Shown: positions 1 to 30,901 of the stretch, in pieces
Layout of the letters: the number at the start of each line of letters is the position of its first letter
Position numbering within the stretch: position 1 is the stretch's first letter
DNA from: a virus
Strand: one strand, 5' to 3'
DNA length: 31,371 nucleotides
IMG/VR virus record: IMGVR_UViG_3300009128_000087
Span: 1 to 31,371 of that record
Notes under the pieces: model-generated
The model's database searches: none
Told to the model about the DNA's origin: nothing
What the model saw: only the letters and a program-made list of their open reading frames with translations
Made by a program: the position numbers and the translations under genes

Positions 1-1482
1 CTGGGGACCATCCTGTCCGACACTCAGTCCTACTTCCAGGTGTTCAACGCTTGGAAGTCCCTGAACGACACTCTGACCGATCTGGTCCTGAGTGGCCAAG
101 GGTACGAAGGCACCACTGTCACTCTTACCATTACCGGCCAGGACTACACGGTAGCTCTTCCCATCGCCCTTAATGCCCTCCAGCATTACCGGTTTGACTT
201 CACGGTCCAAGGCTCCGGCGAGAACACTATCGACTTTGATGTTCAGCCCGTCGTAGCATCTGCTCGCGAGTTCCCCTCGTTCAACGTTATCGGATCCCGC
301 TCTCTCATATTCCCGTTCATCCCGCAGCAGCCGGTGTCCGAGACTATTGAGTTCCTGACCGGCGTAATGATGTCCAAGGACGGCACTGAGTCCCGAATGT
401 CCGAGCGCACGAACGCTCGCCAGGGCTACGGTATGACCTACTTGATTGACAACACCGAGACCGAGATGATGCAGAACGCCCAGGCTCTTGTCCTGGGGAA
501 CTCTGGCGTCCCCATGGGCGTCGGCATGTGGCATCAGACTCGGCAGCTCGACGCAGACGCCGCCCCTGGAGACCTAGACATCCTGGTTGATACCTCCGAC
601 CTCGACTTCCGCGAAGGGGGCTACGCCCTCCTGTGGAACGACTGGAACGACACTGAGGTGGTCAATATTGACTCTGTTCTGGCTGACCGGATCGTATCCG
701 TATCCCAGTTGGAGAAGACCTGGACCACACAGACCTACATTGTGCCGGTTCAGCTGTGTGTTGCAGCAGATATGCCCAAGCTGTCCCGCACCATGAACAA
801 CACGTCCTCCTTGAACATCACCTGGGAATCCCAGGACAACGCGGACATCGCCGACTCCTCCCTGTACTCCACCGAATACCTCGGAATGCCCGTCTTCGAC
901 GACGCGCACCTCATGAGTGGGGGCAAGCTTAATGAGCAGTGGCAGTCCGACATGTTCACCCACGACAACAAGATCGGGGACCGCGCGTACCTCCTTAACC
1001 GACCCACCCGCCAGAACACCAATAAGTTCTGGGATGTGGACCACATGTCCGATGTTATGGCCCTACGCAAGTTCTTCTATTGGACTCGTGGGCAGCAGAA
1101 GTCCTTCTGGATGCCCACCAACCGCGCAGACCTAACCATCAAGCCGGGTGTGGCTATCGGCGCTGGGGACGCAGACGTTGAGTTCATCGACACGGGCTTC
1201 GTCAGGAACATGGGCGTAGCTGAGCCGTGGAACCACGTACGGGTCACCTTGAACGATGGAACCATCTTCTACCGCGAGATCATGTCCGGAGCCAATGACA
1301 CAGTTACTGGCATAGACACCCTCACCATTAGTCCCTCTTTCGGAGTTGCTTTCAGCTCAGACGACGTGGCCGAGGTGTCCTTCTTGGCTCTCTGCCGCAT
1401 GGGCAAGGACGACATGACGCTCAAACACACTGGCCAAGGCCGGGCGTCCACCACCATGGCGCTCACAGGAGTTAAACAATGA
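1..1482 (+). CDS. Minor tail protein (5' end outside window)
   Basis: The reading frame is open from base 1 and ends at TGA 1480-1482, so this is the C-terminal part (about 493 residues) of a longer gene; the real start lies to the left. I do not recognise a named domain with confidence. The position directly before a BR0599-type tail gene and a large tail-tip gene matches the minor-tail slot of GTA-like and Chi/Enc34-like siphophages. The sequence is rich in beta-prone and aromatic residues and lacks membrane segments, as expected for a virion component. The stop overlaps the next start (ATGA), so the two genes are translationally coupled. The tail role rests on context. Confidence 0.7.
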   Translation: MGTILSDTQSYFQVFNAWKSLNDTLTDLVLSGQGYEGTTVTLTITGQDYTVALPIALNALQHYRFDFTVQGSGENTIDFDVQPVVASAREFPSFNVIGSRSLIFPFIPQQPVSETIEFLTGVMMSKDGTESRMSERTNARQGYGMTYLIDNTETEMMQNAQALVLGNSGVPMGVGMWHQTRQLDADAAPGDLDILVDTSDLDFREGGYALLWNDWNDTEVVNIDSVLADRIVSVSQLEKTWTTQTYIVPVQLCVAADMPKLSRTMNNTSSLNITWESQDNADIADSSLYSTEYLGMPVFDDAHLMSGGKLNEQWQSDMFTHDNKIGDRAYLLNRPTRQNTNKFWDVDHMSDVMALRKFFYWTRGQQKSFWMPTNRADLTIKPGVAIGAGDADVEFIDTGFVRNMGVAEPWNHVRVTLNDGTIFYREIMSGANDTVTGIDTLTISPSFGVAFSSDDVAEVSFLALCRMGKDDMTLKHTGQGRASTTMALTGVKQ

Positions 1483-2360
1483 GCTACGCATCCCAGGAGA
1501 CATCTACCCAGGACGGCCAGCCTCTTGAGCTGTACCACTTCTCTCAGGTCTCTGGGACGGAGAAGTTCACGTTCACTTCTGGCCAGATCAATGTGGAACA
1601 TGATGGGGACATCTACACTCCCGCCCCTATCGCTCGCTCCTCACCGAAGATCGGCGTGAACACCTCCTCGGGCAACATCACCCTCACGTTCCCTCGGGAC
1701 CACGAGTACGTGCAGCGGTACATCCAGGGCCAGCCTCCGCTCCCGGATACCTGCACCATCTACCGAGGACACAGTACTGATGGTGCCACCCCGGAGATGA
1801 TCACGTTCTTCTCCGGCGACGTCAACGGCGTGGTGTTCGAAGGCAACGAGGCCAAGGTTACCCTGGCCACTGTATCCGCCCGGATGCAGCGGGAAGTCCC
1901 GAAGCGGTCTTTCTCCTGGTCCTGCAATCACGTTCTGTATGATGGGCTCTGCCAGATCGGCAAGGAGTCTTACCGCTCCGACGTTCGCGTCGTGTCCATC
2001 TCCACTGATGGCCTCACTGTATTCATTGAGCATGACCCGGCCTGGGGCGGAACCTCCGCCGCGGACCGCGTGGCAGGCGACGCAACCTACTTCGCTGGAG
2101 GGCTCGTTAAGTTCTCCAGCCCCATCGGTACGTACTCCCGCACCATCATGGCGTACGACTCGGGCACTGGGTCCATCACGTTGAGCCTACCCCTGGAGAC
2201 CCTTACGGTGTCCGGGATTATGTCCCTGTACGCAGGCTGCAACCATGCGGCCCAGACCTGCCGGGACAAGTTCAACAACATCCGGAACTACGGAGGATTC
2301 CCCTTCGTCCCCACCAGCAACCCGTTCTCTGACGGCATTGTCAACGACTACAAAGAATAA
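1479..2360 (+). CDS. Tail protein of the BR0599 / DUF2163 family
   Basis: A 293-residue protein. Two cysteine motifs mark the family: CNHVLYDGLC near residues 148-157, and a C-terminal block with GC-H---TC followed by a kF-N--N-GGFPFVP--NPF pattern near residues 252-285. Such proteins sit next to the tail-tip/hub protein in gene transfer agents and in many siphophages, and are thought to be part of the distal tail complex that contacts the host surface; the paired cysteines may form disulfides or bind metal. The start overlaps the previous stop (ATGA), and the tip gene follows 15 bases after the stop. Confidence 0.85.
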   Translation: MSYASQETSTQDGQPLELYHFSQVSGTEKFTFTSGQINVEHDGDIYTPAPIARSSPKIGVNTSSGNITLTFPRDHEYVQRYIQGQPPLPDTCTIYRGHSTDGATPEMITFFSGDVNGVVFEGNEAKVTLATVSARMQREVPKRSFSWSCNHVLYDGLCQIGKESYRSDVRVVSISTDGLTVFIEHDPAWGGTSAADRVAGDATYFAGGLVKFSSPIGTYSRTIMAYDSGTGSITLSLPLETLTVSGIMSLYAGCNHAAQTCRDKFNNIRNYGGFPFVPTSNPFSDGIVNDYKE

Positions 2361-2375
2361 AGGAGCTTAACCCCC

Positions 2376-5249
2376 ATGGGCCTCGTTGAATATCTTCTAG
2401 TATCAGCTGTTCTGATGGTACTGTCCATGCTCCTCATGCCGTCCCCTAACGTAGAGGACGCCAAGAAGGGCAACCTGGACGAGTTCGGATTCCCCACCAA
2501 CATGGAGAACCGGAACATCCCCCTGGCTTTCGGCACTAACCGACTGACCGGGCCCAACATCATCTGGTATGGCAATCTTAGGACTAGGCCGATCAAGGAA
2601 GACCTTGGTGGCCCCTTCAGTACTGACTGGGTGATCCTCGGATGGAAGTACTACGTGGGATTCGACCTCGCGCTCTGCGCAGGCCCCGTGGACTCCATCT
2701 CTCAGATCCGCATCAACGACAAGATCGTCTTGGAAGCTGGCCAGAACGGTGTTCCCGTCACGGGACTCACCGACGGCGGCGGCGCAGACGGCGAAGACTA
2801 CTTCATCGACCTGCCCGAACTGGAAGGCGGCCACAAGAAGGGCGGCGGCGTCCAGGGCAACCTGAAGTTCTACAACGGCAACTACGACACCAACATCAAC
2901 CAGTACCTGATCGACAAATCCGGCTCCAACTCTACCCTCGTCCCGGGCTACCCGGGGCTCTCCCGCATCGTGTGGGAAGGCGGATACGTTGGCGAGCGGG
3001 CCACTATCGGTGACTGGGATGTGGTCATTCACAACTACCCTAACCCGCTGGCATTGACCGGCGGAAAAGAGCGCATCAACACTGTCTCCCCCTCCGGCCA
3101 CGGCGACGCCAATCCCCTAAACATCCTGTACACGATCCTCAATAACGAGGACTACGGCCTGGGGATTTCCGAGGATCTGCTTGACATCTCGTCCTTCCAG
3201 GCAGCTGCGGACGTGTGCTTCGACGAGGGCCTTGGGTTCTCCTACCTGATCCAGTCCGGCCAGAAGGCCTCTGCAGCAGTCAAGGAGATCCTTGAGCATA
3301 TCAACGGGTTCTTGTTCCAGGACTTCAACGGCAAGTTCACCATCACCCTGACCCGGGACGACTACACTCCCGCGTCCTTGCCCCTCTTCGACCCCACCAA
3401 CATCACCAAGATCAAGTCTGTAACCAAGTCCGCTTGGAGCAAGACGCAGAACTCGGCCATGTGTGAATACGTGGACTGGGTCGACAACTTCAAGGCCACC
3501 AATGCCGTGGCGCACGATCTCGGGAACATTGAGATGCAGCGCGGGCAGCATAACTTGGTCAAAAAGAAGTTCCCCGGGTGTCGCAATGCGACCACCGCGG
3601 CCTTCCTGGCCCAGCGTACGCTGTCTGAACACGCAATCCCGCTGGTAGCCGTAACCCTGGAGACCAACCGGGACGGCGCTCTCTTGAACCCCGGCGACGT
3701 GGTCCGCGTTACGGACCCGGACTTCGGGCTCAGTGAGAAGGTCATCCGCGTGGCAGAGATCAGTCGTGGGAACGCGACTACTCCCTCCACCGTCATCAAG
3801 GGCATGGAGGACATATTCTCGACCCCGCAGAACATCGTGTTCACCGGCGGCTCCTCCAGCCTCCACGAGAACGTCTCGGCAATCGCGGAACCCGCGGCCC
3901 TGATTGAGATGAGCGGCCTTACCGCCTGGGAGTACACCATCCACGGCGGCAACAGCGACGAGTCTGTTCGCGTGCGCCACGATCTCGTCCCGGCCAACGC
4001 CAACAACGGGGCTTTCGAGCTGATGCTCCAGAACCCGCAGTCCGGCGAATACATCAAGGACAGTGGCACCATTTCCATGACCTCCTCCCTTCTCTCTGAG
4101 GAGCCGAGCAACGGCACCTGGAGACTCACGGAAGTGTCCGACCACTACGTGGCCGATGGCTCCTCCGATACCTGGACGGGGTCTACGGCCTACGCGCTTG
4201 GCGACCGGGCCCAGAACGGCACTGAGAACTGGGAGGTTACCTCCGCAGGGACCAGTGCAGCATCTGGTGGTCCGACTGGCGGCTTCGTGGCCTCTCCGTT
4301 CACGGACGGTTCGGTAACCTGGACCTACCTGGGCAACGCGGGTCTCGACGTCCCCGTCATCCAGTTCGGTGACTTCGACGTCACCGCGGCCTTCCGCACC
4401 CAGTCCCTGGCCGACATTCAGGCCTACGGGTACGGGCTCATTCGCGTCGGCGACGAGTTCATGGCATACACCACGGTCGACTCCGTATCCACTTCGGACC
4501 CGGCATGGCAGGTGGACCCCAACCAGACGGATGGCGAGCAGGACCTTAACGGCGTGAGCCTCTCAACCGGCTCCAGGGTCACCGGCATCTCGGGCATCTA
4601 CCGAGGCCTCCTGGACACGGACATCGTGGACCACTCTCCGGGCGAGCGCGTGTGGTTCTACGCGGTCAGCGATCTCCCGATCAACCAATCAAACCTTGGG
4701 TTTGAGCAGCAGACATTCAAGCACATCACGTCTTCGCCCACGGGCAAGATCAGTTTGGACGCCGCTGCTCCCAAGAACATATCCGAGGGCAGTATCCGGC
4801 GGTTCGAAAAGCCGCTGCGGCCTTCCAACATCACCATGAACGGAAACACTGGCGCGGCCTCCCGTAACATTAATATCGGGACGGGGTCCATGACCACCGG
4901 GTGGACAAACCAGGGCACTCAGCCCAACGAGTCCAAGCTTCTGATCCAGACGGACCAGTCGATCTCCGGGTCCTACGCGGACCTGCAGGTCCAGTGGCGA
5001 ATTGAGACCTCCCCGGGCTCTGGGTCCTTCCAGACTATCCGTACAGACACCATCGGATCTACCACCACCACGCAGAACACGATCCTGACCCGCCCTGAGC
5101 TGGAAGCATACAAAGCTTGGAGCGACGTCGGGGCACCTAACACGTACGAAGCCCAGGTCCGGATCTGGAGAACGGATCTCACTAATGACTCCACCTCCCG
5201 AGATTCGCATGTTACCTGCGAGCGTACGTTCTTCGTGCAAGGCGACTAA
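2376..5249 (+). CDS. Large tail-tip / host-attachment protein
   Basis: A 957-residue protein with a hydrophobic N-terminus (residues about 4-22). Next comes a segment typical of GTA gp15-like and J-like tip proteins, ending in an LNPGDVVRVTDPDFGLSEKV block around residues 430-449. The rest is long, beta-rich and Gly/Ser/Thr-rich, probably fibronectin- or carbohydrate-binding-like and likely to determine receptor specificity. It is the last gene of the tail operon: a strong hairpin follows the stop by 7 bases. The start follows AGGAG with suitable spacing. The family assignment is by resemblance of the central region; the C-terminal third is probably phage-specific. Confidence 0.8.
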   Translation: MGLVEYLLVSAVLMVLSMLLMPSPNVEDAKKGNLDEFGFPTNMENRNIPLAFGTNRLTGPNIIWYGNLRTRPIKEDLGGPFSTDWVILGWKYYVGFDLALCAGPVDSISQIRINDKIVLEAGQNGVPVTGLTDGGGADGEDYFIDLPELEGGHKKGGGVQGNLKFYNGNYDTNINQYLIDKSGSNSTLVPGYPGLSRIVWEGGYVGERATIGDWDVVIHNYPNPLALTGGKERINTVSPSGHGDANPLNILYTILNNEDYGLGISEDLLDISSFQAAADVCFDEGLGFSYLIQSGQKASAAVKEILEHINGFLFQDFNGKFTITLTRDDYTPASLPLFDPTNITKIKSVTKSAWSKTQNSAMCEYVDWVDNFKATNAVAHDLGNIEMQRGQHNLVKKKFPGCRNATTAAFLAQRTLSEHAIPLVAVTLETNRDGALLNPGDVVRVTDPDFGLSEKVIRVAEISRGNATTPSTVIKGMEDIFSTPQNIVFTGGSSSLHENVSAIAEPAALIEMSGLTAWEYTIHGGNSDESVRVRHDLVPANANNGAFELMLQNPQSGEYIKDSGTISMTSSLLSEEPSNGTWRLTEVSDHYVADGSSDTWTGSTAYALGDRAQNGTENWEVTSAGTSAASGGPTGGFVASPFTDGSVTWTYLGNAGLDVPVIQFGDFDVTAAFRTQSLADIQAYGYGLIRVGDEFMAYTTVDSVSTSDPAWQVDPNQTDGEQDLNGVSLSTGSRVTGISGIYRGLLDTDIVDHSPGERVWFYAVSDLPINQSNLGFEQQTFKHITSSPTGKISLDAAAPKNISEGSIRRFEKPLRPSNITMNGNTGAASRNINIGTGSMTTGWTNQGTQPNESKLLIQTDQSISGSYADLQVQWRIETSPGSGSFQTIRTDTIGSTTTTQNTILTRPELEAYKAWSDVGAPNTYEAQVRIWRTDLTNDSTSRDSHVTCERTFFVQGD

Positions 5250-5256
5250 CGAACTT

Positions 5257-5278
5257 CCAGGGGCCTTCGGGCCCCTGG
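5257..5278 (+). terminator. UUCG hairpin after the tail operon
   Basis: A perfect 9-bp stem (CCAGGGGCC / GGCCCCTGG) with a TTCG tetraloop begins 7 bases after the tail-tip stop. Only a weak T-rich tail follows (TTGTGAAG). It could terminate or attenuate transcription between structural and lysis genes, or stabilise the upstream mRNA. Confidence 0.65.
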
Positions 5279-5334
5279 TTGTGAAGTCCTCCCTACCCCC
5301 CAGGTACTTATTCTAGGAAGGAGGTCCTGTCGCT

Positions 5335-5577
5335 ATGGTTGACAAGACAAAGCTAACAGAGAGGGAAGTGGGGGAGATCGTGACTCAGATCGCGGATCTC
5401 CGCCACAGCCTACGCAATGCAAAGCAGGGCCAGTACATGCTGGCCGATAAAGTCGCCGAGCAGCAGCTCGCTCTAGCTACTCTCAAAACAAGGCTGAACA
5501 CCACTATTGCGGTGGGGTTCGCGCTCCTTAACATCATGGGCCTCGCGCTCAACTGGATAAGGACTATGGCCGCATAG
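5335..5577 (+). CDS. Coiled-coil plus one-TM lysis-cassette protein (XhlA/holin-like)
   Basis: An 80-residue protein. Residues about 8-55 are charged and heptad-like, suggesting a coiled coil; residues about 57-75 form one hydrophobic segment with a short tail. This layout resembles XhlA-type hemolysin/holin-accessory proteins. It lies directly upstream of the endolysin and holin, so a role as holin partner or antiholin is likely. The start is chosen by a very strong site, AAGGAGGT, 10 bases upstream. It is the first gene after the UUCG hairpin. Function is inferred from size, topology and position. Confidence 0.6.
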   Translation: MVDKTKLTEREVGEIVTQIADLRHSLRNAKQGQYMLADKVAEQQLALATLKTRLNTTIAVGFALLNIMGLALNWIRTMAA

Positions 5578-5590
5578 GCAGGAGATCTCA

Positions 5591-5989
5591 ATGGCATCAT
5601 TCGGACGGACATCAAAGGCAAGGCTCGCGGGCTGTGATCCGCGGCTCCAGGAAGTCCTACACCGAGCCATTGAGATCGTAGACTTCACGATCACATGCGG
5701 GCACCGCGGTCAGGTAGAACAAGACCGCGCGTTTGCCCTGAAACACAGCAAGGCCCGTTGGGGCCAAAGTAAACACAATTCGACCCCTAGTCAGGCAGTG
5801 GACATAGCTCCCTGGCCTATCGACTGGGACGATACGGAAGCGTTCGTCTATCTGGCCGGAATCATCCGGGCAGTGTCGCACGATCTCGGCTACGGTGACA
5901 TCATCCGCTGGGGCGGTGACTGGGACCAAGACGAGAGAATGCGGGACGAGCGCTTCCGTGACTACCCTCACTTTGAAATCAAGGAGTAA
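5591..5989 (+). CDS. Endolysin, M15-type L,D/D,D-peptidase
   Basis: A 132-residue cytoplasmic enzyme predicted to cleave peptide cross-links of peptidoglycan at lysis. The zinc-binding pattern of the VanY/phage-T5-lysin group is visible: SKHNSTPSQAVD supplies H62 and D71, and DYPHFE near the C-terminus supplies H127 with a likely catalytic acid nearby. No signal peptide is present, so export depends on the holin. The length matches single-domain phage M15 endolysins (about 130-140 residues). The Shine-Dalgarno site GGAGATCTCA precedes ATG. It sits between the coiled-coil/TM protein and the 3TM holin. Confidence 0.88.
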   Translation: MASFGRTSKARLAGCDPRLQEVLHRAIEIVDFTITCGHRGQVEQDRAFALKHSKARWGQSKHNSTPSQAVDIAPWPIDWDDTEAFVYLAGIIRAVSHDLGYGDIIRWGGDWDQDERMRDERFRDYPHFEIKE

Positions 5990-5992
5990 CCT

Positions 5993-6379
5993 ATGATCCC
6001 CCTAGCCATCGCAGGCGCAGTCCCCGCAGTCGAGGTCATCGGGAACGTGATCGACAAGCTCTTCACCTCTGACGAGGAGCGACTGGACAAGAAGGCCGTA
6101 CTGGCCCAGCTGGCCCTGAATCCCGGGCTCGCGCAGATTGAACTGAACAAGGCTGAAGCCACCCACAAATCCACGTTCGTCGCTGGATGGCGTCCCGCTA
6201 TTGGCTGGACCTGTGGAGCAGGGCTCGCCCTCGCATTCGTTATCAACCCGATCTTCCAATGGTGGACCGGCACCCCTGGCCCGCAGCTCCCGATTGACTC
6301 CATGTCCTCCCTGGTCATGGCAATGCTGGGACTCGGCGGAATGCGCACCTTCGAAAAGCTCGTTGGACGGACCAAGTAA
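5993..6379 (+). CDS. Holin of the 3TM type
   Basis: A 128-residue membrane protein. The N-terminus has a hydrophobic stretch followed by a charged region (residues about 28-55), then the family-typical GWRPAIGW segment leading into a transmembrane helix (about 66-87), and another hydrophobic helix at about 103-116. This matches the 3TM holin family found next to endolysins and in gene transfer agents; it would form inner-membrane holes that release the endolysin. The gene starts 3 bases after the endolysin stop with the site AAGGAG. It is the last plus-strand gene before the convergent boundary. Confidence 0.85.
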   Translation: MIPLAIAGAVPAVEVIGNVIDKLFTSDEERLDKKAVLAQLALNPGLAQIELNKAEATHKSTFVAGWRPAIGWTCGAGLALAFVINPIFQWWTGTPGPQLPIDSMSSLVMAMLGLGGMRTFEKLVGRTK

Positions 6380-14379: not shown

Positions 14380-14457
14380 TGGCGGGACGGACGGGATTCG
14401 AACCCGCAATCGCCGCCGTGACAGGGCGGTGCCTTAACCAGATTGGGCCACCGCCCC
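14380..14457 (-). tRNA. tRNA-Asp (GTC)
   Basis: Cloverleaf by eye: acceptor GGGGCGG/CCGTCCC, anticodon stem CCGCC/GGCGG around loop CTGTCAC (anticodon GTC), T arm GCGGG-TTCGAAT-CCCGT, discriminator G and an encoded CCA. Last of the cluster on the minus strand. Confidence 0.93.
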
Positions 14458-14470
14458 GTTCAGTCTGTAG

Positions 14471-14557
14471 TGGTGCATGGGGAAGGATTCGAACCTTCGA
14501 AGGTATAATACCAGCAGATTTACAGTCTGCTCTCGTTGGCCACTTGAGTACCCATAC
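14471..14557 (-). tRNA. tRNA-Tyr (GTA)
   Basis: Acceptor GTATGGG/CCCATGC, anticodon stem GCAGA/TCTGC around CTGTAAA (anticodon GTA), a long variable arm with stem GGTA/TACC typical of class II bacterial tRNA-Tyr, T arm GAAGG/CCTTC, discriminator A and encoded CCA. Confidence 0.93.
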
Positions 14558-14565
14558 AGTAGAAT

Positions 14566-14640
14566 TGGCTCCCCGGGTAGGACTTGAACCTACAACCTTT
14601 CGATTAACAGTCGAACGCACTGCCATTGTGCTACCGAGGA
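14566..14640 (-). tRNA. tRNA-Asn (GTT)
   Basis: Acceptor TCCTCGG/CCGGGGA, anticodon stem TTCGA/TCGAA around CTGTTAA (anticodon GTT), T arm with TTCAAGT loop, discriminator G and encoded CCA. It lies 8 bases upstream of tRNA-Tyr and 6 bases downstream of tRNA-Ala. Confidence 0.93.
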
Positions 14641-14646
14641 ATAAAA

Positions 14647-14723
14647 TGGTGGAGCTGGTCGGGTTCGAACCGACGACCTTCTCGGTGCAAGCGAGACGCT
14701 CATCCCAACTGAGCTACAGCCCC
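14647..14723 (-). tRNA. tRNA-Ala (TGC), overlapped by the HNH gene
   Basis: Acceptor GGGGCTG/CAGCTCC contains the G3-U70 wobble pair that marks alanine tRNAs; anticodon stem TCTCG/CGAGA around CTTGCAC (anticodon TGC); discriminator A and encoded CCA. The first ten bases are also the last codons and stop of the upstream HNH gene. Confidence 0.95.
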
Positions 14724-15106
14724 ATTTTAACTATGTACGAGACGGCTTGATGTGTGATTCCGTACCGACTCGCTATGTCTTTTAGTTTCTCACCGCTGGC
14801 CCGAAGGTAGCGTATCTCTTCCTTCTGCGCAAGCGTTGTTTTACCTGCGGTCCGTCCTCGGGTTCTGGCGTCCTCATTGTTGTCCGCGATTGTGCCAATC
14901 TCCAGATGCTCCGGGTTTAGGCAGGCGCGGTTATCACATTTGTGCCGGACCACGAGGCCCTCGGGGATGGGTCGGCCATTGGCTCGCTCCCATTCAACCC
15001 GGTGCCACAGAAGCTGTTTCCGGCTTCCCGGTATCCTACGGGACCCTACCCTGCGGATAGGATACCCGTTACCATTCAGGCCTGTTGCTTCTTGGCAAGG
15101 GCTCAT
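14714..15106 (-). CDS. HNH homing-type endonuclease
   Basis: A 130-residue protein. The HNH motif of the CDNRACLNPEHL type spans residues 57-68, with the preceding H55 and an earlier H35; the C-terminus (about 96-127) looks like a helix-turn-helix (LKDIASRYGITHQAVSYIVK) that would read the target DNA. Such free-standing enzymes nick or cut DNA and spread their own gene between phages. The ATG at 15104-15106 follows AGAGGATCAC; an upstream extension runs into tRNA-Ser and is discarded. It lies between tRNA-Ser and tRNA-Ala, and its TAG is bases 8-10 of tRNA-Ala. Confidence 0.88.
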   Translation of the reverse strand: MSPCQEATGLNGNGYPIRRVGSRRIPGSRKQLLWHRVEWERANGRPIPEGLVVRHKCDNRACLNPEHLEIGTIADNNEDARTRGRTAGKTTLAQKEEIRYLRASGEKLKDIASRYGITHQAVSYIVKMGL

Positions 15107-15131
15107 GTGATCCTCTAAAGGTAAAGGCCCT

Positions 15132-15160
15132 ATTGTAGCCCAGGCCAGGGAGTCTGTCAA
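15132..15160 (-). promoter_or_regulatory. Sigma70 promoter for HNH and tRNA cluster
   Basis: TTGACA (15155-15160), 17-base spacer, TACAAT (15132-15137). It lies just after tRNA-Ser and 26 bases before the HNH start, and would drive HNH plus the four following tRNAs. Confidence 0.85.
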
Positions 15161-15170
15161 GAGGTGCGGG

Positions 15171-15258
15171 TGGCGGAAGGTGGGAGATTCGAACTCCCAA
15201 AGAGTTTCCTCATACTCGCTTTCCAAGCGAGGCCGTTACCAGTTCCGGTCAACCTTCC
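15171..15258 (-). tRNA. tRNA-Ser (GGA)
   Basis: Acceptor GGAAGGT/ACCTTCC, anticodon stem CTCGC/GCGAG around TTGGAAA (anticodon GGA), class II variable arm with stem GAG/CTC, T arm GGGAG-TTCGAAT-CTCCC, discriminator G and encoded CCA. Separated from the other four tRNAs by the HNH gene. Confidence 0.93.
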
Positions 15259-21225: not shown

Positions 21226-21572
21226 GGTTTGTAGTTGCTGATATCAATCGCCTGCTGCAAAAGATCGTCCTTGCTCTGGGTTTCCTTCAGCTCGGTCGGT
21301 CCGCCGATGGATTCCCGGTACTGATCGATATCGAAGTCGAACGTCTGAATGTCCTGCTCAATGATGCCGGAGTGTATGCGGCCCCATCTAGCTTCGAAGT
21401 CCTGAATGGACCGGATCAGACTTTCGATCCGGTCCAAGGAGGAGAGCGCGTTCGCAACGATGTGCCCCGCCGTTCGGTGGTGGTTATGCGGTCCGTCCAC
21501 GTCGGGGTTGATTCTTCCATGGTCACAGAGGGAGGCTATGGCCCTCCGTACCTTCTCGATTTCTTCGATCAT
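21222..21572 (-). CDS. Hypothetical helical protein, 116 aa
   Basis: The ATG (21570-21572) overlaps the metallophosphoesterase stop (ATGA) with GAGGAAAGC upstream. The sequence has a His-rich patch (GPHNHHRTAGH, residues about 27-37) that could bind metal, then helical acidic segments. Not recognised. It shares the transcript of the metallophosphoesterase. Confidence 0.6.
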   Translation of the reverse strand: MIEEIEKVRRAIASLCDHGRINPDVDGPHNHHRTAGHIVANALSSLDRIESLIRSIQDFEARWGRIHSGIIEQDIQTFDFDIDQYRESIGGPTELKETQSKDDLLQQAIDISNYKP

Positions 21573-23254
21573 GCTTTCCTCGCCGGACGCCACTGCCCGT
21601 CGATGATCGGTATCAGTTGGCGTTTTCCGTTGGGGTGGATTACGCAATGGCAGTGGAGCCAGCTGCTCGGACCCGAAGCGTACTCCAGGTTCAGGCGACT
21701 TGACGTGCCCACCTGATGAACGCCCCGGAAGATGTTGGGGCTATGGCTATGGCCGATCACGCTCTTCATGCCGATGTTTGCGAGGTTCCGCGCGCTGCCT
21801 CGGGCCCCATTGGGTCCGCGATGGCCGTGCATGGACACGTCAATGTCTTTGATCATGTAGGGGCTGTTTGCTCCCAGGAACTCGCAGTTGCCTTTGATCT
21901 TGCCATCGGCGTAGGATTCGAAGGGGTTGACGAAGGCGGTACCAGTGTCGGTACGTTTCGCCGTCTCCAAGACCCCCACCATCAGGCGGTGGTACATCAA
22001 GGCGTTCTCCGGCGTAACCGCCTTCTCGCCCTTCGCCAGCCATTGGGTCAGGTGGTCGTTGTGGTTCGAAGAGACGATCAGGTTCAGCGCGCCCTTGGGC
22101 GTGGTCTTGTTCAAGAAGTCGATGGTGTTGTCCAGCTCCTCCTCCAAGTTGCCCCAGCCGCTATTGGACTTGTTCGTCATGGTGATGTTGTCACCCAGGT
22201 GGTGATGCGAGACGGAGTAGGCGTCGAGAAGGTCGTGGCGCACGATCACGTGCGGTCGGCCCTTCTTGGCCATGCTGTCCCGATTGGTGTAAGTGGCCGC
22301 CATTACAGTCGGATCCACAAACGCCGCGTGTTCGTCACCGGGGATGAGTGCTTCCCAGCGCTGGTTCCGATAGACGGTACCTTCGCAGGAGTAGTACTCG
22401 GTGAGGTCGGCGATGCCCTGCCCGTCGAAGGAGAGGGCGCGCATGAAACAGTTGCCCGTCTTGGGGCACACCTGGACCACTACCGCGCTGTTGTTGTGGT
22501 GGAACTCAGCGAGGTTGCCGGACTTGGTAGTCGAGTAATTGGCCAAGGTAACCGCACCCGTCGAGTAGAGGATCTTCGGGAGGCGGGCCTGCGGGGTCGG
22601 AATAGTACGCATCATCAGCTGCGTGGCAGCATAGACGGCGTGCTTCTCGCCAGACCGCGCGTCGAGACCAGACAGGGGATTGCCAGACGTCGCGGGGATC
22701 CGGACGTCAGGGGCCACCCAGTCGGCGAACTCATACGGCTCGTCGGACAGGTAAGCTTCGACTTCGTCGGCCCACCACATCCCCTCGGGGTATCCGGCCT
22801 CCGGCGTAAGCGGGTTAATGGGGTTCCGATAGCGGATCGGTCGGACAATCAGGGCTGCCTTGTTCTTGCTGCAGTACAGCTCCAGAGCGTCGAGGAAGTC
22901 GTGGTTGACTTCGGTGTTGTTCTGGGCGGCAGTGATCACCCAGGTGCGGGCGTCACGGATCTTCTTTGCCTGATCCTTGCCAGCTACGAAGAAATGATCC
23001 TTCTCCACGGACTGCGTGGTCGGGGCGAGCTTAGGCTGGACCGCGGTAAGGCCCATGGCCTTGAGATGCCGCACGAGCGAAGGCTCGCTGGTGAAAGGGA
23101 AGCCCCGCTCATCGATCAAGTAGGTAAGCAGAGCCATCACAGGCTCGTCATGCCCAGCTTCACGGCGTAGGATTACAAACTCCTCGCAGGCCGCTTGTGC
23201 CTTGGGGTTGGCTTCGAACCATGCTTTCATGCTAGTGCCTCGTCCACCGGACAT
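21569..23254 (-). CDS. Metallophosphoesterase, possibly like phage T5 A1
   Basis: A 561-residue protein. A helical N-terminal domain (about 1-100) precedes a calcineurin-type phosphoesterase core: GDEH (306-309), a block with D341 and H350-H352, SSNHNDHL (395-402), MHGH (475-478) and GHSH (501-504), which together give the two-metal ligands. The enzyme should cut phosphoesters, most likely DNA or nucleotides. Size and motif layout recall T5 A1, a phage protein needed for host DNA breakdown and DNA transfer; that link is a suggestion only. The start at 23252-23254 follows AAAGGAATACCCT. Confidence 0.75.
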   Translation of the reverse strand: MSGGRGTSMKAWFEANPKAQAACEEFVILRREAGHDEPVMALLTYLIDERGFPFTSEPSLVRHLKAMGLTAVQPKLAPTTQSVEKDHFFVAGKDQAKKIRDARTWVITAAQNNTEVNHDFLDALELYCSKNKAALIVRPIRYRNPINPLTPEAGYPEGMWWADEVEAYLSDEPYEFADWVAPDVRIPATSGNPLSGLDARSGEKHAVYAATQLMMRTIPTPQARLPKILYSTGAVTLANYSTTKSGNLAEFHHNNSAVVVQVCPKTGNCFMRALSFDGQGIADLTEYYSCEGTVYRNQRWEALIPGDEHAAFVDPTVMAATYTNRDSMAKKGRPHVIVRHDLLDAYSVSHHHLGDNITMTNKSNSGWGNLEEELDNTIDFLNKTTPKGALNLIVSSNHNDHLTQWLAKGEKAVTPENALMYHRLMVGVLETAKRTDTGTAFVNPFESYADGKIKGNCEFLGANSPYMIKDIDVSMHGHRGPNGARGSARNLANIGMKSVIGHSHSPNIFRGVHQVGTSSRLNLEYASGPSSWLHCHCVIHPNGKRQLIPIIDGQWRPARKA

Positions 23255-23283: not shown

Positions 23284-23312
23284 ATTGTACCACAGGTGAG
23301 GATCTCATGCAA
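23284..23312 (-). promoter_or_regulatory. Sigma70-like promoter for the metallophosphoesterase
   Basis: TTGCAT (23307-23312), 17-base spacer, TACAAT (23284-23289), 30 bases before the start codon. The -35 box overlaps the last codons of the pentapeptide-repeat gene. Confidence 0.7.
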
Positions 23313-24162
23313 GGGTGTTGCGGGATCTTTCATCCAGGTACGCGTCAGTGGGGAGGCCTTGTTCAAAGCCTTCGCTCCCCTCGGGGAGAATGTTGGTTAG
23401 GTCGCAGTCCGAGAAGGTCGAGTCCATGAAGAACCCGCCGGACAATCGCTGCCCCGAAAGGTCGCAACTCTGGAATGTGGTTCGGACTGCCGCCAGTCCC
23501 CAGAGGGACGTTCGGGTGAAGTCCACGCCGATCACGTGGCTGCCGTTGACCTGCGCGCCTTCCAGGTTACACCCATCGATGATGGAGGCATCTAGGCAGA
23601 CACGGGTAAGGTCGGCGTTGGCCAGGGAGCAGTGGTGGAACTTGGTTCCACTGAGATCCACGAGCGCCATTTCGACGCTGTTTAGGTCGCAGAACTTGAA
23701 GCAGCTGTTGAGTACCGTAGCGCCGTAGAACGTGGCGAAGTGGCCCATCACGCTGAACTCGCAGAAGGTGAAGGCACTGCCACGCCACTCGGCGGACATG
23801 TTCGCGCCGGACAGGTCACACTTTTCGAAGGACGTGTACTTCCCGATAGCCTCGCTGAGGCTCGCTCGGGTAAGCGTGCAGCCTTCGAAGGACGCGTCGG
23901 TCAGGTCGCAGTTACTGAGATCCGTGCCGCTCAGGTCGCAGTTGACGAAGGTGCAGTCCTGAAGGTAGGACTGCGCCAGGACCGCTCCGCTGAAGTAGCA
24001 GTTGGTGAAGGTGCAGCCGTCGAACGTCGAGTTGGACAGATCACCGGTAAGCGTGAGATCTTCCATGGTCCGGGAGCTGAAACGCAAGTTGCCCTCATTG
24101 GCTGCCCTAGTGGCCAGGGCAAGGTCCAGCTCTTCAGGTCGCACGTCAAGGATGCTTCTCAT
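23305..24162 (-). CDS. Pentapeptide-repeat protein
   Basis: A 285-residue protein made of tandem A(D/N)LXX-like five-residue repeats from about residue 30 to 255 (for example LSNSTF-DGCTF-TNCYF, CDLSG-TDLSN), which fold into a right-handed square beta-helix. Some family members imitate B-form DNA and protect or inhibit gyrase; others have no known target. This copy is unusually rich in Cys at repeat edges. The ATG overlaps the upstream stop (ATGA), with AAGGACAACAAA before it. It is in the accessory region beside unknown genes, so gyrase control or anti-defence are both conceivable. Confidence 0.85.
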   Translation of the reverse strand: MRSILDVRPEELDLALATRAANEGNLRFSSRTMEDLTLTGDLSNSTFDGCTFTNCYFSGAVLAQSYLQDCTFVNCDLSGTDLSNCDLTDASFEGCTLTRASLSEAIGKYTSFEKCDLSGANMSAEWRGSAFTFCEFSVMGHFATFYGATVLNSCFKFCDLNSVEMALVDLSGTKFHHCSLANADLTRVCLDASIIDGCNLEGAQVNGSHVIGVDFTRTSLWGLAAVRTTFQSCDLSGQRLSGGFFMDSTFSDCDLTNILPEGSEGFEQGLPTDAYLDERSRNTLA

Positions 24163-28525: not shown

Positions 28526-28759
28526 CTACCTCCAGCCGTTGGTTCCCTGCGTTTGGATGCGCAGGCCCTCGGCGTTATCTAGTGCCAACCACTCAGCGTC
28601 CTTCTTCGAAGGCCCTACCTTGGCCCGCACCTGGGCTTTGCCGAACTTGAGCGCCCATACGAGGTGCCAGTGGCCTGCCGCCAGGATCGAGTCGTTGTCA
28701 TGCTCGGACAGGATCCGGAATCGGCAGCCTTCGGTCAGTAGTTTTGAGTTAGCGATCAT
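28526..28759 (-). CDS. Hypothetical protein, 77 aa
   Basis: Overlaps the upstream stop by ATGA. A compact alpha/beta sequence with conserved-looking HWHLVWALKFGKAQV core; soluble. Not recognised. Confidence 0.55.
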   Translation of the reverse strand: MIANSKLLTEGCRFRILSEHDNDSILAAGHWHLVWALKFGKAQVRAKVGPSKKDAEWLALDNAEGLRIQTQGTNGWR

Positions 28760-29040
28760 CCGAACGTGCCCCCTTTTCGCAGGAGAGACCGGTAGGTCTG
28801 GAGGGATTCCAGACGAGAGTCCAGGCGGATTTCCCGGACATGAGAGCCCGGTACGCGGCTCGCGCGGGACAGATCCACGGCAGTAACGGCGGCGTGTTCT
28901 GTAAGAACCTGGGGCACGTCATCGCCATGCTGGACTGCGGACATTGCTATCTGGGCAGCCTCAATCGCGCCCTGCGCGTGGGCGATATCCCGATTCAGCA
29001 TGTCCATTTGCAGGACTCTCTTCTCATTCTGATCAGACAT
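28756..29040 (-). CDS. Hypothetical helical protein, 94 aa
   Basis: Overlaps the end of the GGDEF gene by 8 bases, so it is translated from the same message. Helical with Ala/Gln-rich middle; no membrane segment. It could be a partner of the diguanylate cyclase by location only. Confidence 0.55.
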   Translation of the reverse strand: MSDQNEKRVLQMDMLNRDIAHAQGAIEAAQIAMSAVQHGDDVPQVLTEHAAVTAVDLSRASRVPGSHVREIRLDSRLESLQTYRSLLRKGGTFG

Positions 29041-29620
29041 TCACGATCTCCTCGCCCGTGAGGGCGTCTGCTATCACGCTCGTCTTGCGCAGCGTCTTGT
29101 CTTCATACATTCCCTTGTCGGCATTGTCGATAGCATTCTTTAGGGAAACCCCGTGGGTGGTGAAAGAATACCCAACGGAAGCATTTACGCCAGCCACTGT
29201 GAGGGCGTTGCGCACCCGCTCCCGGATCAGGGCACCGAGGGTCTCGGGCTCCTGGGGGTAGCCATCGGTCTTGCAGACGATTAGAAATTCGTCCCCGCCC
29301 CAACGGATCACGTAGTCGTTCGGGCGTCCCACAGCGCCAGTCAGGGCCGCTGCGGTACGCTGCAGGAGGTCGTCCCCTGCATCGTGGCCCAGGGTGTCAT
29401 TCACTGACTTGAGGCCGTCGAGGTCAACGAAGACCACTGCAAAATCCACATCCACATCTTCGGGAAGGGACTCGTACGTGGCCCGCGAAAGCTCTCGCTC
29501 CATGCGGTCCACTACGTTCTGGCCCGCGGTGCGGGTCATTACGCCAGTGGGGTCCGTAGACAGCTCGGCTACAAGTTGAGCCAGTCGGGCAATCTCGACG
29601 TCTTTGTCGGCACTATTCAT
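29033..29620 (-). CDS. Diguanylate cyclase, single GGDEF domain
   Basis: A 195-residue protein predicted to make cyclic-di-GMP from two GTP in the cytoplasm. It is nearly all one GGDEF domain: degenerate DPTGVMTR start (23-30), metal-binding VDLDGLKSVND (D66, D68, N74, D75), GHDAGDDLL (79-86), the signature WGGDEF (107-112), ASVGYS (147-152) and ADKGMYEDK (167-175). The inhibitory site R99-x-x-D102 sits exactly five residues before GGDEF, so product feedback is expected. No sensory or membrane domain is present, but the start is coupled (ATGA) to a 46-aa membrane peptide. All catalytic residues I can check are intact. Confidence 0.93.
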   Translation of the reverse strand: MNSADKDVEIARLAQLVAELSTDPTGVMTRTAGQNVVDRMERELSRATYESLPEDVDVDFAVVFVDLDGLKSVNDTLGHDAGDDLLQRTAAALTGAVGRPNDYVIRWGGDEFLIVCKTDGYPQEPETLGALIRERVRNALTVAGVNASVGYSFTTHGVSLKNAIDNADKGMYEDKTLRKTSVIADALTGEEIVNV

Positions 29621-29757
29621 CGGTTCAGTCCCGTAGGCCAGTCCGCGCCGAAGCTCAGGGCGTGGGCGAATCCCGCGGGGATCTCGAAACCCAGGGGCTC
29701 GTTGAAAAGAACGAGGGTAACCACGATGGCTCCAACTACGGTAAGCAAGTTGCGCAT
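29617..29757 (-). CDS. Membrane peptide coupled to the diguanylate cyclase, 46 aa
   Basis: The ATG (29755-29757) has a strong site AAGGAGAAAGAC. Residues about 3-19 are a hydrophobic helix (LLTVVGAIVVTLVLF) and the remainder is polar with aromatic residues. Its stop overlaps the GGDEF start (ATGA), so equal production is likely; it may tether or regulate the cyclase at the membrane. Interaction is inferred only from gene order. Confidence 0.6.
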   Translation of the reverse strand: MRNLLTVVGAIVVTLVLFNEPLGFEIPAGFAHALSFGADWPTGLNR

Positions 29758-29780
29758 GTCTTTCTCCTTGTTTGGATCCA

Positions 29781-30099: not shown

Positions 30100-30110
30100 C
30101 TTATCGGTCC
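30100..30110 (-). repeat. CYTATCGGTCS element at a gene end and start
   Basis: CTTATCGGTCC on the plus strand. On the minus strand GGACCGATAAG carries the last two codons and TAA of the zinc-ribbon gene and touches the ATG of the 80-aa gene, lying between that gene's ribosome site and start. Confidence 0.5.
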
Positions 30111-30901
30111 CCTTCCTCGTTCACTTGATGCCATAGTTCGATTATCTTTTGCTCGTCCTCCTCGGAGATACCAGCGCGTCGTACGCCGGTACCGTCAGGA
30201 GCAGTTACATACATGCCGCCCTGAGCGAGGTAGGCGTGTTCGCAGGACCCGGGGGTCAGTCTGGAAAAAGACCAGCCTCGCGCGGTCCCAGGTTTGTCAC
30301 GCTTGATTCCGCCATGGAGGGCGACGAGGTTCGCATAAGCGGACGTCATCCCTGTGGGCTCGCCGCAGACCATGCAGTCCGGTCCAGGCTCCCCGGGCTC
30401 CAGGTTGAATCGCTTGGCGTAGGATCGTCTCGCTTCGTAACCCTGCGTCCTTTCAGCGTTTTTCGCTCTCTTACGTTCTTCATGGGCTTCCTTGCAGGGA
30501 GGCTTCTCGCAAGCGAGGCCGCGCCCCGTCCAGCGGTCGCCACAGTAGCAGCATTCCTTCCGGGCCTTTGCCGGGTGGGTGACATTGATGCCCTTTGTGC
30601 GGTAGTCTTGCTTCGGCATCGCCCTGCGGGCGCGCTCCAGTAGAACTTCGGCCTCGCAGGTGACACACCGGGCGTGCAGCATCCCCCCGTGGGGGCGGAT
30701 GTCGAAGACGGGGACCATGCTCTGGCCACAGCCGTCGCAGTCTTCGATGGCGTAGACTCCGGTAAGCATCTCGCCAGCGTAGTACGCTTGGGCGGCGGGC
30801 ACGCGAGAGAGGCCACGGCGCGTATCCCTAGGGAGTGCGCGATAGCCTTCCGGGCGCGTGAACAGCGTCCGCTTCCATGCGGGTACGTTGTACCTCTCCA
30901 T
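30101..30901 (-). CDS. Zinc-binding protein with multiple CxxC motifs, 266 aa
   Basis: Several cysteine pairs: CDGC (about 55-58) with CVTC (about 79-82); CCYC (about 116-119) with CEKPPC (about 130-135); and CMVC (about 175-178) with a later Cys near 218. This suggests three zinc ribbons or one complex zinc-binding fold. Basic linkers between them point to nucleic-acid binding. The ATG follows GAGGACTAAGC. No known family recognised; an HNH-related or transcription-modulating protein are alternatives I cannot support further. Confidence 0.65.
   Translation of the reverse strand: MERYNVPAWKRTLFTRPEGYRALPRDTRRGLSRVPAAQAYYAGEMLTGVYAIEDCDGCGQSMVPVFDIRPHGGMLHARCVTCEAEVLLERARRAMPKQDYRTKGINVTHPAKARKECCYCGDRWTGRGLACEKPPCKEAHEERKRAKNAERTQGYEARRSYAKRFNLEPGEPGPDCMVCGEPTGMTSAYANLVALHGGIKRDKPGTARGWSFSRLTPGSCEHAYLAQGGMYVTAPDGTGVRRAGISEEDEQKIIELWHQVNEEGDR

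Follow-up and report, generated by a model that had tools for sequence, protein, structure and literature searches.

A 31,371-base virus record (the whole stretch of DNA that we analysed, hereafter the window) carries a complete, stand-alone gene for a GGDEF-domain protein in which the active and feedback sites are both intact. We favor, with a probability of roughly 0.6, the view that this gene encodes an accessory, bacterial-type diguanylate cyclase, located in the leftward operon of a virulent-looking siphovirus, and that the protein is dimeric and product-inhibited and moderately raises c-di-GMP toward a sessile state that benefits the phage.

The GGDEF gene and its predicted product

The open reading frame runs from ATG to stop at 29033–29620 on the minus strand and encodes 195 amino acids; no alternative start was found upstream of its ATG. 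The gene and its immediate surroundings contain the following features.

28756..29040 (−): 94-aa ORF with no assigned function; 8-bp overlap between its start and the 3′ end of the GGDEF gene
29033..29620 (−): stand-alone GGDEF gene; 195 aa, with helix 3–20 and a GGDEF domain at ~22–180
29285..29299 (−): active-site (A-site) motif G108-G109-D110-E111-F112, from motif reading and alignment
29315..29326 (−): inhibitory site (I-site) R99-P-N-D102, from motif reading and alignment
29372..29374 (−): codon of D83, the guanine-specificity aspartate, which is Ser in Hypr/cGAMP synthases (alignment; PMC6456294)
29396..29425 (−): D66-L-D68-G-L-K71-S-V-N74-D75 motif, with metal, phosphate, and guanine contacts
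29617..29757 (−): 46-aa ORF, inferred to be coding, with one hydrophobic segment (MRNLLTVVGAIVVTLVLF...; hydropathy 2.1 over 17 residues)
29761..29769 (−): strong ribosome-binding site AAGGAGAAA, read from the sequence, for the pair of 46-aa ORF and GGDEF gene

The first-pass annotation of this DNA had proposed a complete GGDEF reading frame with catalytic and inhibitory sites, and profile searches bear this out. The protein matched Pfam PF00990 with E=3.2e-23 (82.7 bits against a gathering cut-off of 23.8), TIGR00254 with 82.2 bits (cut-off 37.4), and 47 distinct PDB sequences at E<=1e-5, the top match being an Idiomarina phytochrome-cyclase; the match to the GGDEF family is far beyond chance. 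The RPND sequence at residues 99–102 is followed by exactly five residues (YVIRW) and then by GGDEF at 108–112, which is the spacing of product-inhibited cyclases. In comparison with 77 aligned GGDEF domains, most of them bacterial, no invariant position has lost its family residue in the protein (T25, D66, D68, K71, N74, D75, G78, H79, G82, D83, R106, G109, E111, F112, D168, Y172, and K175), and the A-site and substrate/metal residues D66, K71, N74, D83, G109, E111, F112, and K175 are intact. Departures from the consensus are found at N29, which is T, at F70, which is L, and in the DxLTGLxNR motif, which reads DP-TGVMTR and lacks one Leu.

Individual residue roles had been assigned to D66 and D68 as metal ligands and to N74 and D75 in substrate binding, and half of these assignments stand. 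By alignment, D66 corresponds to the metal ligand D327 of PleD, and N74 corresponds to the guanine contact N335. The second guanine contact, judged by known cyclase structures, is D83 (PleD D344) rather than D75, and the catalytic acids besides D66 are D110/E111 in the GGDEF loop rather than D68. K71 and K175, equivalent to PleD K332 and K442, are both kept.

An AlphaFold model computed with the 77-domain alignment as input had a pLDDT of 90.7 and a pTM of 0.84. Comparison by Foldseek and VIA-align grouped the predicted fold with solved cyclases and GGDEF relatives, including WspR, PleD, DgcB, SiaD, and ImDGC, with Z values of 17–18.6, and the model has the adenylyl-cyclase-like GGDEF fold. 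Its N-terminal helix (residues 3–20) lines up with the stalk helices through which cyclase domains pair in solved structures, an alignment that makes dimerisation possible in the model. There is no sensory or dimerisation domain beyond these ~20 residues, and thus the isolated GGDEF protein may be a weak monomer.

The phage, its relatives, and the gene's neighborhood

The window is linear and incomplete. Rightward genes at 40–6379 encode tail tip, endolysin, and holin proteins, and the leftward genes, a long series between 31137 and 6523, encode DNA polymerase A, an Enc34-type single-strand binding protein, a DUF2800 nuclease, a VapE-type primase-helicase, a VRR-NUC protein, and a helicase. 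No integrase was found in the window or in three relatives, all of which may be fragments, and the phage looks like a fragment of a virulent siphovirus. That the GGDEF gene is phage-borne, as had been proposed, is supported by the virus record, by the continuous leftward operon, and by uniform composition, with a GC content of 0.597 for the gene and 0.592 for the window and a third-position GC within the range of its neighbors.

The window has other features of note. A 285-aa pentapeptide-repeat protein at 23305–24162 (−) matched PF00805 with E=2e-31 and is distantly Qnr/HetL-like, scoring far under the cut-offs of those models. A 561-aa protein at 21569–23254 (−) matched the 'DNA transfer protein' family phrog_1745 with E=1.5e-119, is conserved in both near relatives, and falls in no Pfam family. 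Five tRNA genes (Asp, Tyr, Asn, Ala, Ser) lie at 14380–15258 (−) around an HNH endonuclease gene (14714–15226).

The closest relatives are IMG/VR contigs: G001 (27–68% per protein), G002, and a 14.6-kb sister contig, L226 (polymerase 89%). The earlier suggestion of a Chi-like phage with a flagellar receptor was not supported, as the DNA polymerase was 43% identical to that of Pamexvirus phiH2 and 27% identical to that of Chi. Only six window genes matched the first 50 kb of Chi at all, at 27–33%, which is short of the close genome-wide kinship that would mark a Chi-like (Casjensviridae, flagellotropic) phage; among isolates, by these sequence comparisons, the phage is closer to Pamexvirus than to Chi.

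The GGDEF domain was absent from all eight related records searched, which may be incomplete; L226 stops before the locus and is therefore uninformative about conservation of the gene. Because the gene is absent from the best relatives, we consider it accessory. IMG/VR and INPHARED, searched by profile and by protein sequence, yielded no orthologue in near relatives and just 24–57% local matches. Orthologues with destroyed motifs in related phages, which would have spoken against a functional cyclase according to the first-pass annotation, did not appear: there were no orthologues among the matches, and the (S/A)GDEF phage family belongs, on the best tree, to another clade than the window protein. 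A search for a close bacterial donor covering 84,980 species by pattern-seeded scan and 398 sampled genomes of one phylum found none, the best matches being 34–47% identical over part or all of the domain and coming from several phyla.

Immediately around the gene, the TGA stop of the 46-aa ORF, which the first-pass annotation does not mention, overlaps the GGDEF ATG as ATGA, and the ORF probably encodes a co-translated membrane peptide; it had no detected homologues in the phages compared. The neighboring gene at 28756–29040 had no family and no relatives, the one at 30101–30901 had no relatives, and the GGDEF gene lies among ORFan genes that are probably takeover genes. A scan for promoters and terminators near the gene gave nothing above chance.

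Proposed role and alternatives

Sequence, structure model, and the specificity residue D83 agree in supporting well the proposal, also made on first reading, that the protein synthesizes c-di-GMP, as the chemistry of its family would predict. From this intact chemistry we infer that the protein is most likely an active cyclase that is inhibited by its product and raises c-di-GMP in the host during infection. The gene would be expressed from the leftward operon, which is probably an early one, and its product would consist of one GGDEF domain preceded by a short helix that might form a coiled coil by pairing. The protein would dimerise and condense two GTP molecules into c-di-GMP, and binding of c-di-GMP at the RPND I-site would limit synthesis. 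The resulting moderate rise in c-di-GMP could move the infected cell toward a sessile state, with less flagellar or pilus activity and an altered surface, and this shift would benefit the phage.

Effects on motility, biofilm, and superinfection may be expected on this model, and the block to superinfection or reprogramming of the host that had been suggested is purely conjectural. The only phage data that we found, which offer a precedent, concern lysogens of Bordetella phage LK3, which has a phage GGDEF gene; they formed 2–4-fold more biofilm, a correlation in which the gene itself was untested (PMC8471281). Flagellar motility rose in one LK3 lysogen strain (PMC8471281), which counts against the simple expectation for c-di-GMP.

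One alternative is that the protein senses or binds c-di-GMP instead of making it productively: the I-site would read host c-di-GMP, and the protein would act through contacts with other proteins, for example the 46-aa membrane peptide. The kept I-site, the lack of an activating domain, the overlapping small membrane ORF, and the precedent of degenerate GGDEF proteins that serve as receptors (PMC3974145) are consistent with this idea, but all catalytic positions are intact and sensors usually lose such positions, making it unlikely in our view. The same ORF invites a bolder proposal, in which the peptide and the GGDEF protein would form one unit, a split, phage-made membrane cyclase that begins making c-di-GMP at the membrane at an early stage of infection and alters the host surface or excludes competing phages. 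The peptide could conceivably be a membrane partner of the GGDEF protein, and we regard the full proposal as a long shot.

Interference with nucleotide-based host immunity, in which production of c-di-GMP or use of GTP would perturb cyclic-nucleotide defence, has been proposed for the phage GGDEF domains of polyvalent proteins (Iyer et al., 2017; PMC5512222) and would suit a gene located among ORFan, probably takeover, genes. PADLOC gave no defence-related match, however, which disfavors a defence cyclase, and c-di-GMP is not known as the usual second messenger of such defences; we give this alternative little weight. We hold it similarly doubtful that the gene is a passenger captured from bacteria with no selected role in the phage. 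The gene is accessory and absent from every relative whose record was searched, but its composition is phage-like, the ORF is intact and overlaps both neighbors, and the identity to the bacterial proteins seen is just 34–47%, a level that suggests long residence more than recent capture.

Synthesis of a different cyclic dinucleotide, cGAMP, by a Hypr-type enzyme is very improbable, for although Hypr enzymes also belong to the GGDEF proteins, with GGDE[F/Y] as their motif, they have Ser/Thr at the guanine-specificity position, where Asp confers GTP specificity, also with GGDEF (PMC6456294), and the window protein has D83; D83 together with GGDEF therefore makes c-di-GMP, rather than cGAMP, the expected product.

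If the favored reading is correct and the protein is active, it would join a small number of phage cyclases that have no host sensory domain and in which the active and feedback sites are both intact, here in a phage with no detectable integrase. It would also allow a direct test of whether c-di-GMP is raised by virulent phages and of how they profit from it, a question for which the papers found give just a correlation in lysogens.

Comparison with other GGDEF proteins

Phage GGDEF genes were already known. The annotation of YuA gp44 names a diguanylate cyclase domain and a 'putative role in host cell conversion', and we found genes of this type in ~47 Mesyanzhinovviridae records at >=60% identity (Pseudomonas and Bordetella phages). 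Bacillus phages G and SP-15 have stand-alone copies, and diguanylate cyclases have been reported in Cariaco Mu-like, glacier, and Sargassum viruses. GGDEF domains in polyvalent proteins were described as 'not very widespread', with interference with host nucleotide signalling suggested (Iyer et al., 2017; PMC5512222). Our profile scan of IMG/VR gave 86 GGDEF matches, of which 80 were kept; 70 of the 80 are parts of long ORFs (mostly >1,000 aa), the other 10 stand alone, and the motif begins with S in 62. Thus, the claim that such a gene is unusual in a lytic phage survives insofar as the gene is absent from the phage's relatives, but Mesyanzhinovviridae carry stand-alone GGDEF genes as a rule, phages G and SP-15 have them too, and GGDEF domains are common in phage polyvalent proteins.

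Several observations concern these viral sequences in their own right. A phage-specific GGDEF-like clade (L113–L192 of IMG/VR, L110, L111, and L112) has the pattern DxDSLKWVND...(S/A)GDEF, mostly as one domain of very long polyvalent proteins and sometimes stand-alone, and the survey suggests that it is more widely spread than the literature we found implies. Altered motifs can be active, as in AGDEF VCA0965 and SGDEF ECA3270 (PMC3974145). The SP-15 cyclase (L223, 378–3208) is surrounded by clustered genes for sugar and teichoic-acid transferases, so that a link to surface polymers may be suspected. Another viral contig (L203, 221–1227) has a stand-alone, intact 148-aa GGDEF gene that overlaps the end of a pentapeptide-repeat gene. 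Looking for terminase genes in other viral contigs with GGDEF domains yielded nothing and is uninformative about them. Diguanylate cyclase matches in the INPHARED records AFYI01000007, AGRM01000005, and the CAKLQF/CAKLQH series come from what look like bacterial chromosome contigs, and naive counts of phage cyclases are therefore inflated.

In the best tree, whose bacterial rows were gathered by similarity to the window protein, the phage family is split from bacterial GGDEFs with 100/99 support, and the window protein is on the bacterial side, adjoining the split, with the viral protein of L203 nearby. Shared DGLK and DKxxRK letters had given rise to the idea that the window protein belongs to the (S/A)GDEF clade, and L70 agrees with that clade; the KxxRK letters are found in a bacterial protein (L050) as well. 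The best tree places the window protein elsewhere, and an AU test with the protein constrained into the phage clade did not reject that placement (p=0.47). Judged by its motif, I-site, and full-length C-terminal half, the window protein is bacterial-type.

The large phage clade mostly has altered motifs, and against it the window protein is atypical. YuA gp44 and the Mesyanzhinovviridae 'GGDEF domain protein' family (phrog_5594) resemble it as small, stand-alone phage genes, with 36–38% identity over the aligned part; they differ in having (S/A)GDEF, no RxxD, a shortened C-terminal half (~156 aa), and a place in a separate clade, whereas the window protein has a full-length domain and GGDEF. 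The polyvalent-protein domains (Iyer et al., 2017) are likewise phage-encoded and share the DxD(G/S)LK motif, but they are embedded in very long proteins and are mostly SGDEF, whereas the window protein is free and intact. The SP-15 diguanylate cyclase and phage G gp350 are also stand-alone, with bacterial-looking, intact GGDEF/GGEEF motifs; these two, from different and large phages, are just 24–29% identical to the window protein and have N-terminal membrane-like segments. What sets the window copy apart, as far as can be read from the DNA, is that both the active and feedback sites are kept in a gene missing from the known relatives. With the bacterial cyclases WspR, PleD, DgcB, and ImDGC, the window protein shares the (predicted) fold, the A-site, the I-site, and the guanine and metal residues; it differs from bacterial cyclases of PF00990/TIGR00254 in being phage-encoded, in having no sensory domain, and in its F70L substitution and one-residue deletion in DxLTGLxNR.
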